Source of the DNA: Candidatus Saccharimonadota bacterium
Lineage (GTDB): Bacteria; Patescibacteriota; Saccharimonadia; Saccharimonadales; Saccharimonadaceae
NCBI GenBank assembly: GCA_017512175.1
Contig: JAFWHA010000016.1
Span: forward strand, 1 to 32,673
DNA: 32,673 bases
Direction: 5' to 3'
The notes beneath the pieces are model-generated. The model had not been told where the DNA came from. It saw only the letters and a program-made list of their open reading frames with translations, and made no database searches. The translations under genes were made by a program, and so were the position numbers. Below are positions 1 to 20,698 of the stretch, piece by piece (position 1 is the stretch's first letter; each line of letters opens with the position of its first letter).

Positions 1-1036
1 TATAAAAGAATGGAACACTAAACCAGATGGTACAGGAACAGCTTATGCACTAGGCGATAAGTATACTATTACTATAGACGATACTAATCCTCATTCTAAT
101 GAAGCTACACTTTATGCTATCTGGACTAAAGATTTCTTCTCTATCGCTAGTATGCAAGAAATGTATCCTACTGTTTGTGCTAAACTCTATACTCCATCTA
201 ACGCTACTGGCACTAATGCTACGGCTATTACTCTGACTTCTGATAATGCTGGTACTGTTCCTGGCGCTAAAGCTACACAAGCTGTCACCAACTATGCAGG
301 ATATAAGTCAATTGTAACTAGTAGTGGCTCTGTATCTGGAGATAACCAGCCTTATGTCGCACAACGCACATTGTCAGACATTAGAGATGGTAAAACTTAC
401 ACTGTTAGAAAAATGGCGGATGGGAATTGTTGGATGAGTTCTAATCTTAAATACGAATTATATGCTAACAGTACTCGTACTGGTGTTAATAATACTACTG
501 GGGAGCAGATTACATTCAATACTGGAGCTATTTGTGGTAATGGTAACACCAATGCAGCTTGTATTATGAATGGTAATACTGCCTACAACAGTACTTATGA
601 TTCTTGGTACTATTCTTGGTACGCTGCTACTGCTGGAAGTGGAACAGCCAGTACGACTTTCGATAACGGAGATGCAGCAAATTCTATCTGTCCAGCTCAT
701 TGGAGATTACCAACTAATTACACCAATAAACAATATCCGAGTGGTGGAGCGCAGAAATCTTGGGGATCACTCGTAAGTGCTTATGGAATTAACCCTGCTA
801 ACCACTCCACTACTTCCGAATACCAGATACTAGAAGCCTTCCCATTTACCCTTCCCCGCGCCGGCTACTTCGGCTCGGGTGCCTTCCAGAATAACGGCTG
901 CGGCGACTGGTGGTCTTCTACTGCTCATAGTACTGCTACCCACGCTTACTACCTGGACTTCAACACGACGCGCGTCATCCCGCAGTACGGCAACAGCAAG
1001 TACCACGGGTTTAATGTCCGCTGCGTATCAATTTAA
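1..1036 (+). CDS. FISUMP-domain surface protein, 5'-truncated by window edge
   Basis: The reading frame is open from base 2 to the TAA at 1034-1036, so this is the C-terminal part of a longer protein; the ATG at 152 is internal. The first ~45 residues (WNTKPDGTGTAYALGD...TLYAIWT) look like the end of an InlB-type (Listeria-Bacteroides) repeat. A TM7-style linker (MQEMYPTVC) and Ser/Thr/Ala-rich segment follow. The FISUMP domain (Fibrobacter succinogenes major paralogous domain, related to the C-type-lectin/FGE fold) then shows DGKTYTVRKMADGNCWM, a CPAHWRLPT motif, a WWSST motif and the terminal GFNVRCVSI. Such proteins are secreted surface adhesin-like proteins; the ligand is unknown. The last ~190 bp are about 58% GC and rich in NNC codons, unlike the AT-rich upstream part (see findings). 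Family call fairly sure; role inferred. Confidence 0.85.
   Translation, partial: IKEWNTKPDGTGTAYALGDKYTITIDDTNPHSNEATLYAIWTKDFFSIASMQEMYPTVCAKLYTPSNATGTNATAITLTSDNAGTVPGAKATQAVTNYAGYKSIVTSSGSVSGDNQPYVAQRTLSDIRDGKTYTVRKMADGNCWMSSNLKYELYANSTRTGVNNTTGEQITFNTGAICGNGNTNAACIMNGNTAYNSTYDSWYYSWYAATAGSGTASTTFDNGDAANSICPAHWRLPTNYTNKQYPSGGAQKSWGSLVSAYGINPANHSTTSEYQILEAFPFTLPRAGYFGSGAFQNNGCGDWWSSTAHSTATHAYYLDFNTTRVIPQYGNSKYHGFNVRCVSI
845..1024 (+). other. Candidate DGR variable region (VR)
   Basis: This 3'-terminal coding segment has about 58% GC (110 of 190 bases counted over 841-1030) and a dense run of codons ending in C (GGC TAC TTC, GCC TTC, AAC GGC TGC GGC GAC). The rest of the gene is AT-rich with T/A-ending codons. 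It encodes the end of a C-type-lectin-like FISUMP domain and finishes in a conserved GFNVRC block. DGR variable repeats typically sit at the 3' end of such genes and derive from templates rich in AAC codons. No template repeat or reverse transcriptase lies in this window, so the call is inference and boundaries are approximate. Confidence 0.45.
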
Positions 1037-1087
1037 AGAAACTATCAGCAAAGCTCCCTTAAGCTTCTTATTAGCCCAAGAATACTA

Positions 1088-2160: not shown

Positions 2161-3249
2161 ATGTACGGGATGGGCATTAACTATGATTACATTGAGAAAC
2201 GCATCCGCGCTTGTGATTATTTGACAGTAGCTCAATTATTTTTGCAGGATAATTTTTTGCTTGAGCGACCGCTAAGTTTCTCCGATATTAAACCGCGCTT
2301 ATTAGGACATTGGGGAACTTGTCATGGCATTAATGTTGCTTATGCGCATCTTAAAAGCTTTTTTGATGACAATTTCCAGTTTGTGCTTGGTCCTGGACAT
2401 GGTTTTCCGGCATTACAAGCGAACTTGTTTTTAGACGGGGATTTATTAAAAGTTGATTCGAAAGCACAAAGGAATATTCAAGGATTAGCTTATATTTGTA
2501 GAAATTTTTCTTGGCCTTCTGGATTTCCATCGCATGCATCGCCGATGACTCCTGGCGTAATTTCTGAAGGAGGAGAGCTAGGATATGCATTAGCTACCGC
2601 TTATGGCGCGGCACTTGGTCATCCAGAAAAGAATATCGCAGTGTTGATTGGCGATGGCGAGTTCGAGACAGCGACTGCGCTTGCTTCTATGAATTTAGTC
2701 AAACTGCTTGGAACGAATAAAAATGGCAATGTCATACCGATTTTACATCTTAATGGATATAAAATTTCTGCTCCGACTATCTATGCGAGAAAATCCGAAA
2801 GGGAATTAATGTCACTGATTCGAGGATTTGGCTATACGCCGATTCTGGTTGATGGAGAAGATCCGGAGGCTTTCCAAATCGCTTTAGCTAATATTTATTC
2901 TACTTATGGTATAAATCAATTCGCTTCTGCTAATGTCCAAAGTAATTATGCTAATAGCCAAAATGTTTCTACTAATATCTACAATGCTTCTGCTAATGTT
3001 GAAAATGTTAACGTTAATAATAAAGATGCCTATCCAGTCCAGAATCCATTTATCATCATGAAGACAGAAAAGGGCGCTACTGGGCCAGAATATGTTAACG
3101 GTAAGAAGGTAGAAGGTAATTATCTTGCTCACCAAATTCCTTTGAAGAATGCTAAAACCGATAAAAATGAACTTGGTATTTTGGAAACTTGGTTAAAATC
3201 TTATAATTTCGGGCAGTTGTTTAATGATATGGAAGGATTCACGCTATGA
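2161..3249 (+). CDS. xfp: Phosphoketolase, N-terminal (thiamine-PP binding) half
   Basis: 362 aa, matching the first ~45% of the normally ~800-aa xylulose-5-phosphate/fructose-6-phosphate phosphoketolase. That enzyme cleaves the ketose phosphate to acetyl-phosphate plus an aldose phosphate using thiamine diphosphate. Seen in order: GHWGTCHGINVAYAHL (family GHWGTxPG), GPGHGFPALQANLFLDG, GFPSHASPMTPGVISEGGE, the cofactor motif GDGEFETA (family GDGEAETG), LHLNGYKISAPT, and TEKGATGPEYVNGKKVEG with the AHQIPL motif. Residues ~252-293 are an Asn/Ser/Ala-rich low-complexity insertion. The TGA stop overlaps the ATG of the next gene by 4 nt (ATGA), which suggests translational coupling with the C-terminal half. 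Function confident; the two-chain arrangement is notable. Confidence 0.93.
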   Translation: MYGMGINYDYIEKRIRACDYLTVAQLFLQDNFLLERPLSFSDIKPRLLGHWGTCHGINVAYAHLKSFFDDNFQFVLGPGHGFPALQANLFLDGDLLKVDSKAQRNIQGLAYICRNFSWPSGFPSHASPMTPGVISEGGELGYALATAYGAALGHPEKNIAVLIGDGEFETATALASMNLVKLLGTNKNGNVIPILHLNGYKISAPTIYARKSERELMSLIRGFGYTPILVDGEDPEAFQIALANIYSTYGINQFASANVQSNYANSQNVSTNIYNASANVENVNVNNKDAYPVQNPFIIMKTEKGATGPEYVNGKKVEGNYLAHQIPLKNAKTDKNELGILETWLKSYNFGQLFNDMEGFTL

Positions 3250-4466
3250 CATCTATCTCGGAAACATATCTTAAATTTTCTCCAGAATTATTCGGACCGG
3301 AGATGCTGCAAAATCCGGGTACAGAGTATTATTCTTCTGCTGAAAAAATAGGTGAGCTGCTAAGGGAGACATTTAAGCAGGATGCACATTTTTATCTTTT
3401 TTCTCCAGATGAAACTACAAGTAATAAATTAGAGAAATCATACGAAGCTACTAAGCGAGCTTGGGCTTTGCCTATTAAATCTTGGGATATGCCGGAGGCG
3501 GAAAATGGACGTATCGTGGAATTATTATCTGAAAACGCTTTGCTCGCTGCCATGATAGGACACGTGCTAGAAGGCGAAAAAGCGATGATGACGAGCTATG
3601 AAGCATTCTTTTCGATTGTTACTTCGCAGCTACTACAATATATTAAATTCTTAGTTCAGAGTGAAGATGTCCCTTGGCGAAAAGCAGTGCCAGCACTCAA
3701 CTTGCTGTCTACCAGTACTTGTTGGCGACAAGATCACAATGGTTTTTCTCATCAGTCACCAATGCTTATTTCTACATTGCTTAGTAATCCGTCTAATAAA
3801 GCAAACTGTATTTTTCCAGTAGATGATGTCGCTGCGGCTGCAGCATACGATTTCATGTTAAATTCAGAGAATGTTGTAAATCTTACAACATTTAATAAGA
3901 CGGATGAGCCACGTTGGATTGACCGTTATCACGCTACGTATCAATTCGATCACGGAGCCAGTATTTTTGGATTTGCTTCTGATGATGATCCGGACTATGT
4001 GTTCACTGCGGCTGGTGATATTGCCACGCGCGAGGCCATTCGTGCGATAGAAATTCTAAGGCAAGATATTCCGGGTAGAAGATTTAGATTCGTAGGTATT
4101 AATGCATTGTCGTATGGAGCTATCGGTACAACTAATGCGAAACTATCACGCGAGCTGTTTAATAGTTTTTATACTGACAATCGTCCGATAATTGCGAATT
4201 TCCATGGGTATCCTGAGACGTTAAGGACTATACTTACAAATTATGCTGAATCTGATCGTATTAGAGTGCATGGTTTTGAAGAACATGGTAGTACGACTAC
4301 GCCTTTTGAAATGTTGCGTTTAAACCATGCTTCTAGGTATGACCTCGCGATGGATGTTGCTGCGCATGAAAATAGAGACGATTTAGTGGCGAAATATTCT
4401 AGTATAATTAATGAAAATGCTGAGTATGCTAGGAAATTTGGCAAAGACCAGATTAATGTGTTATAA
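3246..4466 (+). CDS. xfp: Phosphoketolase, central and C-terminal half
   Basis: 406 aa, continuing exactly where the N-terminal gene stops. It covers the pyrimidine-binding and C-terminal domains. Seen: FSPDETTSNKLE (family GPDETxSNRL), GRIVELLSENALLAAMIG, the SYEAFFSIV motif, the strongly conserved CWRQDHNGFSHQSP, AAGDIATREAIRAI, FHGYPETLRTIL, and HGFEEHGSTTTPFEML. The two chains sum to 768 aa, close to a full enzyme, and no catalytic block is missing. The working enzyme is therefore probably a heteromer of both products, acting in the cytosol on pentose or fructose phosphates. It starts in an ATGA overlap, so it depends on translation of the upstream gene. A sequencing frameshift is a possible alternative, but the split falls at the natural domain boundary. 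Confidence 0.93.
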   Translation: MTSISETYLKFSPELFGPEMLQNPGTEYYSSAEKIGELLRETFKQDAHFYLFSPDETTSNKLEKSYEATKRAWALPIKSWDMPEAENGRIVELLSENALLAAMIGHVLEGEKAMMTSYEAFFSIVTSQLLQYIKFLVQSEDVPWRKAVPALNLLSTSTCWRQDHNGFSHQSPMLISTLLSNPSNKANCIFPVDDVAAAAAYDFMLNSENVVNLTTFNKTDEPRWIDRYHATYQFDHGASIFGFASDDDPDYVFTAAGDIATREAIRAIEILRQDIPGRRFRFVGINALSYGAIGTTNAKLSRELFNSFYTDNRPIIANFHGYPETLRTILTNYAESDRIRVHGFEEHGSTTTPFEMLRLNHASRYDLAMDVAAHENRDDLVAKYSSIINENAEYARKFGKDQINVL

Positions 4467-19357: not shown

Positions 19358-19399
19358 AGATATCAATAATTAAGTAGCTTTATGAAAGGAGATTATAAT

Positions 19400-20698
19400 A
19401 TGAATAAAGTTATTAAATCTGCTTCCGCCGCTCTTACCGCTGCTGCGATTGTCGGCGTAAGTGTTGCTCCAGCTGTAATGGCTTGGGGCGATAGTGCAGG
19501 TGGTCGTTCCGTCTACACTTTAACTAATTGTAATGCGGACTACTCTAAGTGTGAAGTAAGTCCAGCTATGGGTGATAAAATCACCTTTAACTCATACACT
19601 AACAACCAAGCTATCGGTGGGGATGAACGTGATTTCGTACATACCCGTGTGAATGGTTCCAGTGATGTTTGGCAATCCAATGAGATTACCGTAGAAAATG
19701 GTAAAGAGTATGATATTCGCCTTTATGCTCACAACAACAACCCAAATGGTACTAATGCTGTGGCTACTGGTACTACTCTTCACTTTACTTTACCTACTGT
19801 TGCTGGTACTGAACTTTCTGTTCAGGGCTCTATTGATGCAACTAACTCTGATCCAAAACGTGTTTATGATGACGTTGTATTCAAAAGCCCAGATGGTCAG
19901 GCTTTCTACCTAGATTATATTGAAGGCTCTGCTACCTATAAGAACAATGCTCAAGGTACAGTTTCATTAACTGATGACGTGATTACAAGTAAGGGTGCTT
20001 TGATTGGTTATGACAAGATGGATGGTAACATTCCTGGTTGTTTCCAATATGCATCTTATACTACTATTCGCGTAAAAGCAGTGTATCTTAACACTTCTTA
20101 CACCGTTGAGAAAACTGTTCGTAGAATTGGTGATACCGACAAGACTTATAAAGACACTGTCGAAGCCAACTTGGGCGACACTGTAGAATATCAGATTTAT
20201 TACAATAACGACTCTACTGAGCACGTTGACAATGTAATGGTCAAAGATGTTCTTCCAAACAATATGGAATATATTGCTGGTAGTACTAAAGTTTATAACA
20301 GTGCTAATCCAAAAGGTGTAAAAATCCTTGATGACACTATCACTACTACTGGTATTAATATCGGTAGCTATGGTCCTAATGCCAATGCTTATATCCGCTT
20401 CCGTGCTAAGGTTGTTGATAAAAGCATGGTTTGTGGTACTAACAAGCTCGTAAACTGGGGACAGGTTGGTGTTGGCCAAACTACTCTTCAGGATAATGCG
20501 TTTGTGATGGTCAAGAAGACTGACGGTTGTGGTCCAAATCCAGATCCAACTCCAGTTAACCCTGACGATCCTATTGTACCAAATACTGGTAAGTTACCTT
20601 CCACTGGTGCTACTGGTTTAGCTGCTGGTCTTACCATTGCAGGTATCAGTGTTGCAACCATTGGTTATTATATTGCTAGCCGTAAATCTCTACGCTAA
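19400..20698 (+). CDS. LPXTG-anchored surface protein with DUF11-type repeat
   Basis: 432 aa. The start is MNKVIK at 19400, chosen for the SD AAAGGAG (19385-19391) and the signal peptide that follows (SAALTAAAIVGVSVAPAVMA, cleavage likely after ~28). The ectodomain is rich in Thr/Asn/Asp. About 225-335 resembles the DUF11 conserved repeat domain of cell-surface proteins (VEANLGDTVEYQIYYNNDS, VKDVLPNNMEYIAGSTKVY, RFRAKVVD). The C-terminus has a Pro/Asp linker, VPNTG (393-397), LPSTG (399-403), a hydrophobic helix and the basic tail SRKSLR: a classical sortase sorting signal. The protein should be covalently fixed to the cell wall, but no sortase gene is in this window. It appears to be a single-gene unit with a terminator downstream. 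Confidence 0.9.
   Translation: MNKVIKSASAALTAAAIVGVSVAPAVMAWGDSAGGRSVYTLTNCNADYSKCEVSPAMGDKITFNSYTNNQAIGGDERDFVHTRVNGSSDVWQSNEITVENGKEYDIRLYAHNNNPNGTNAVATGTTLHFTLPTVAGTELSVQGSIDATNSDPKRVYDDVVFKSPDGQAFYLDYIEGSATYKNNAQGTVSLTDDVITSKGALIGYDKMDGNIPGCFQYASYTTIRVKAVYLNTSYTVEKTVRRIGDTDKTYKDTVEANLGDTVEYQIYYNNDSTEHVDNVMVKDVLPNNMEYIAGSTKVYNSANPKGVKILDDTITTTGINIGSYGPNANAYIRFRAKVVDKSMVCGTNKLVNWGQVGVGQTTLQDNAFVMVKKTDGCGPNPDPTPVNPDDPIVPNTGKLPSTGATGLAAGLTIAGISVATIGYYIASRKSLR

Follow-up and report, generated by a model that had tools for sequence, protein, structure and literature searches.

Features of the window

The window analysed here, a stretch of 32,673 nucleotides from a Candidatus Saccharimonadota bacterium, begins with an open reading frame of 344 amino acids (positions 2–1036) whose 5′ end is open. 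The encoded protein matches both TIGR02145 (54.8 bits) and PF09603 (43 bits) above cut-off, which upholds the assignment to the FISUMP family made in the initial annotation. Window bases 1–52 are identical to the end of contig C11, where a gene start with a signal-like segment is found. Because the C11 end exactly overlaps both the window (52 bp) and contig C3 (115 bp), the gene that starts on C11 continues in one or the other. The relevant features, all on the window unless a contig is named, are as follows.

2–1036, plus strand: gene for a surface protein with a FISUMP domain, targeted by the DGR; truncated at 5′ by the contig end, stop codon at 1034–1036
2–365, plus strand: N-terminal ectodomain (stalk) portion of an expressed-type gene; window 1–436 and C3:64–499 are 94.7% identical
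366–387, plus strand: junction sequence TLSDIRD, from which expressed genes and start-less cassettes are similar
368–1027, plus strand: FISUMP domain, TIGR02145, frame residues 123–342
855–1026, plus strand: DGR variable repeat (VR), where identity with the template starts and stops
1007–1026, plus strand: conserved VR 3′ end, candidate initiation-of-homing site, placed by analogy with BPP-1
C12:34923–35108 (L011:6924–7109), plus strand: template repeat (TR), non-coding, with 15 AAC codons, about 100 bp from the reverse transcriptase gene
C12:35213–36388, minus strand: DGR reverse transcriptase (RT), 391 amino acids, RVT_1, with IGNLSSQ and YVDD motifs read from the sequence
C12:36460–37425, minus strand: Avd-fold partner, 321 amino acids, flanked by the RT and the nearest target, from a structure model

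The compositional switch first noticed at the end of this gene is borne out. GC content is 57% in 841–1033, as against 40% in 2–844 and 41.5% in the window as a whole; within the window this level is reached by 0.6% of all 193-bp stretches, and the GC-rich end is thus beyond chance fluctuation. NNC codons make up 58% of the VR and 16% of the upstream sequence, and the protein terminates in GFNVRCVSI, in line with the conserved GFNVRC ending originally read there. The repeat proper is shorter than the 841–1033 initially proposed: the limits of identity with the template place it at 855–1026, aligned to TR positions 5–176 (C12:34927–35098). The stop codon follows 8 bases past the VR, a spacing shared by the other targets whose 3′ ends are intact. 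The terminal 20 bp are near-invariant across the TR and the VRs, with differences there being largely synonymous C to T changes.

A C-type lectin fold is conjectural for this target domain: apart from the FISUMP families, the protein matches Lcl_C weakly (E = 0.044). DUF1566 (Lcl_C) is the commonest reported DGR target domain (PMC6642488). The AF2 model of the FISUMP domain has a pLDDT of 42. Antibody matches returned for this domain by a PDB profile search were weak and were treated as chance.

A template repeat on another contig and adenine-directed variation

Searching window 700–1050 against its own genome (G000; 611,729 bp, 72% complete and fragmented) gave 14 near-full matches, the window counted, and one short match at C12:34927–35102 that covers only the last part of the query and is adjoined by the RT gene. 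The near-copy predicted by the initial annotation is therefore present: 172 bp long, it differs from the window chiefly at template adenines, lies next to a DGR-type RT and is rich in AAC codons as expected. The window had been noted to contain neither an RT nor a template, and both are located on C12. Since TR and RT lie on a different contig, the window gene is targeted in trans; of the two arrangements offered earlier, a target served in trans was the correct one and an end-located cassette was not.

Alignment of the window VR to the TR gives 17 mismatches over 172 positions. All but one are at template adenines, so that 16 of 48 adenines but only 1 of 124 other bases have changed (p = 2e-9). 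The same pattern holds for all 14 VRs, which are spread over nine contigs: measured against the one TR, 267 of 672 adenine positions have changed, as opposed to 71 of 1726 positions with any other base (p about 1e-100). The target adjoining the TR carries 21 adenine changes and no others. Mismatches fall at A in 79% of cases with the TR as template and in 20–44% with any VR as a mock template, and since the adenine bias vanishes with these mock templates, the direction from TR to VR is contained in the data themselves.

Synonymous sites tell the same story. Between the window gene and 12 paralogues, dS is 1.14 outside the VR and 0.13 inside it, with dN about 0.2 in both regions. Copying from one template accounts for synonymous sites that are homogenised within the VR though the amino acids differ. 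Clustered nonsynonymous change in the 3′ segment of homologous genes, which had been named as a distinguishing property of a DGR, is thus present within this genome together with homogenised synonymous sites. One might instead suppose that the GC-rich end belongs to a family of paralogous surface proteins and has been recombining or was gained by horizontal transfer, as the dispersed paralogues with 77–90% identity across the genome would allow. We consider this extremely improbable, given that the adenine direction of the mismatches appears only against the non-coding TR, that an RT and an Avd-fold protein lie beside that TR, and that dS collapses inside the VR. The conclusion that a DGR variable repeat lies at the 3′ end of a FISUMP gene, as originally suggested, is supported by the adenine-directed mismatches and by the RT alongside the TR. 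The segment 855–1026 is almost certainly such a repeat, belonging to a DGR that acts in trans, and a single TR and RT serve the window gene along with at least 13 more targets dispersed over the genome.

Adenines within AAC codons are changed at a rate of 60% compared with 7% elsewhere, a contrast that we read as selection preserving the scaffold. Adenine changes in AAC never yield a stop codon. It is tempting to speculate that TR positions 76 (T, with C, G or T in the VRs) and 67 are former adenines that have since mutated. In scans for Rfam families and promoters in the vicinity of the TR, nothing exceeded the level of chance.

The reverse transcriptase and its Avd-fold partner

The top PDB match of the RT is the BPP-1 DGR RT (8ub7, E = 2.5e-22), with the next match far behind. 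A structure model of the neighboring protein (pLDDT 87) assigns an Avd fold to residues 148–264, which match BPP-1 Avd (4dwl, 8ub7 and 8ub8) with a Z score of 15.8 to 4dwl and 8ub8. Homologues of this partner adjoin the RT in about 20 relatives. Residues 1–145 of this partner protein (L011:8464–9426) form an alpha/beta domain with a conserved WYKxGGNS-like motif. This N-terminal half of the fusion is possibly MutS-I-like, judging from a profile signal in 1 of 22 members (E = 0.035); we found no support for it in the PDB.

The TR and the RT are encoded on opposite strands in this genome and in nearly all same-genus loci in which a TR was found, whereas in related Bacteroidales loci the TR lies upstream of the RT on the same strand. 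DGR layouts with an inverted RT are already known (PMC6642488). A second RT in the genome (C11:142847–144373; L025:1348–2874, minus strand) was rejected as a DGR RT, being instead an AbiP2-type defence RT (PADLOC, E = 8e-140).

Expressed-type targets and start-less cassettes

Of the 14 VRs, half belong to expressed-type genes: four genes with products of about 700 amino acids that have a hydrophobic segment at the N terminus, and three that are interrupted by contig ends, namely the window gene, C12:2–826 and C16:56128–57801. The other seven VRs lie in open, N-terminally cut FISUMP cassettes of ~235 codons that have neither a start codon nor a signal. These cassettes all begin at one common point, most of them behind a shared upstream flank. 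Head-to-head arrangements with the N-terminal portion of an expressed-type gene are seen for four cassettes, of which one has no recognisable VR.

At two loci, C3 and C6, pairing by inverted repeats is proven. The repeat on C3 (419–499 and 1773–1853) is a perfect 81 bp and flanks a tail-to-tail pair made up of a VR cassette and an expressed C-terminal domain; that on C6 (1517–1578 and 2844–2905) is a perfect 62 bp, and paralogues differ by 6% over these regions. The C3 contig ends one base past the junction. Contigs C1, C3, C4, C5, C6, C10, C11, C12, C16 and C17 all break in or beside FISUMP genes. With so many contigs ending there, the FISUMP copy numbers are lower bounds, and as the assembly breaks at these repeats, both the copy numbers and the 5′ junction of the window gene are uncertain. 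None of the three tyrosine recombinases in the genome lies at a cassette, and among them no dedicated recombinase for the cassettes could be named. An open reading frame between FISUMP cassettes (C6:167–1414) looks AAA ATPase-like by eye; a similar-looking frame near the TR of a second species, G022 (L207:4242–5528), may be a chance occurrence.

Related genomes and the age of the system

The set of RT, partner and TR recurs in many same-genus genomes, and those relatives that bear a name are Candidatus Saccharibacteria found in the guts of ruminants. In G022, the second species within the genus, we counted no fewer than 38 VRs. Most are in short cassettes, and arrays of these, in both orientations, occur within a 77-kb contig. 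We predicted its template from the consensus of 26 VRs before the TR was located; 32 of the 34 hypervariable columns are first or second codon positions, mostly in NNC codons. The TR was afterwards found as predicted (G022:C2:66882–67079), on a different contig from the RT and Avd fusion. Across the 38 VRs of at least 150 bp, 832 of 1975 adenines and 460 of 5162 other bases differ from this TR. In another relative, G005, an off-contig target has all 22 of its mismatches at adenines. The TRs of the other relatives tested are accompanied by fewer VRs, few of them close, so that large archives are not universal.

The 5–9 non-adenine differences from the TR carried by several VRs of the window's genome could indicate a fossil system, with VRs written long ago and TR, RT and targets that are now relics subject to recombination only. 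Such older VRs may indeed include copies that are no longer served. For the system as a whole, a fossil state is improbable: the RT and its partner are intact and conserved genus-wide, the TR-adjacent target and the window VR carry no and one non-adenine change, respectively, and three G022 VRs have no non-adenine differences at all. We infer that homing is active at present. One of those three VRs, with 24 changed adenines, is carried by a short cassette situated 1.3 kb away from the TR, and a cassette that lacks a stalk can therefore also bear a fresh template copy.

This freshly written cassette bears on whether the start-less cassettes are instead dead fragments, arising from duplication or stray cDNA insertion and serving no functional archive. 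To this reading we give a substantial chance, somewhat below even. The cassettes are without start or signal, their non-adenine differences exceed those of expressed-type copies (p = 0.009), a few in G022 are strongly diverged, and truncated “suspicious” targets occur in Treponema denticola as well (PMC4891356). On the other hand, the eight cassettes tested have open frames and a dN/dS of about 0.16 outside the VR at dS of about 1, which is hard to explain with dead copies; 25 of 26 G022 cassettes are open across 73 codons; the inverted repeats are perfect despite the 6% difference between paralogues; and the upstream flank is held in common.

Proposed mechanism and relation to known systems

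By analogy with BPP-1, the TR would be transcribed from the plus strand into a template RNA, which the RT and its Avd-fold partner would copy with errors at adenines; the cDNA would then replace the 3′-terminal VR in the window gene and in no fewer than 13 further FISUMP genes or cassettes. As the template adenines lie mostly in the 15 AAC codons, the outcome would be a FISUMP domain with a conserved scaffold and about 14 randomised residues. The products are likely to be surface binders of a bacterial host, particles or phage. Episymbiotic CPR bacteria need to bind host cells. The anatomy of the loci further suggests that the TLSDIR junction is where cassettes and expressed genes exchange, through either inversion or gene conversion. 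One TR and RT would vary both the expressed genes and a silent cassette archive, from which recombination probably brings cassettes into expression. The DGR component of this model is firm, and cassette switching is its conjectural part. That the DGR fills a dispersed archive of silent cassettes (seven here, about 35 or more in G022), from which recombination feeds a few expressed stalk genes, has in our estimation close to an even chance of being correct.

The system resembles the BPP-1 DGR (Mtd, bRT and Avd) in its AAC-rich TR, adenine-specific differences, 3′ target VR, related RT and Avd fold. It differs in that BPP-1 has a single target in cis whereas at least 14 are present here, nearly all in trans, and in having TR and RT on opposite strands, an additional N-terminal domain on Avd and FISUMP as the target. 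Remote targets are also known in cyanobacteria (PMC7517822). The T. denticola DGR (TvpA) likewise serves dispersed cellular surface targets in trans from one RT and one TR, with up to seven targets per isolate, some of them truncated (PMC4891356). In contrast to T. denticola, there are 14 targets here and at least 38 in G022, of which half or more are start-less cassettes with inverted repeats. DGRs are known in CPR bacteria (PMC8144416, PMC10907252), and those surveyed are, like this one, cellular DGRs of ultra-small episymbionts; their targets mostly lack recognisable domains, unlike the FISUMP domain and signal-like N terminus found here (PMC8144416). By its own statement, that survey could not see remote targets, and a template whose 14 or more targets are scattered goes unseen in surveys that require VR and RT on one contig (PMC8144416).

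The R64 shufflon, Borrelia vls and Neisseria pilS are silent-cassette or inversion systems. With these our loci share start-less open C-terminal cassettes, inverted repeats at the junction and tail-to-tail pairs; they differ in that the cassettes bear DGR-written VRs, have no assigned recombinase and would exchange by a route deduced from their arrangement. Among the papers covered by our literature search, none links DGRs with FISUMP, which is weak evidence. Papers linking DGRs with shufflons, gene conversion or phase variation are few, and none of them, judging by titles and abstracts, concerns such a system. Within the literature searched, and with the same weak force, we found no earlier description of this many-target, archive-like organisation. 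If the cassettes are a written archive, they would represent the first link in that literature between DGR mutagenesis and cassette switching, and hypermutation and cassette choice would be combined in an epibiont genome of 0.6–0.7 Mb.

Other genes in the window

A phosphoketolase is encoded on the plus strand at 2161–4466 in two overlapping open reading frames, with XFP_N in 2161–3249 and XFP and XFP_C in 3246–4466; this may be a genuinely split gene or the result of a frameshift. Further along the same strand, 19382–20698 encodes a DUF11 surface protein in which a C-terminal LPSTG-like motif and a hydrophobic tail, recognised by eye, suggest sortase anchoring.
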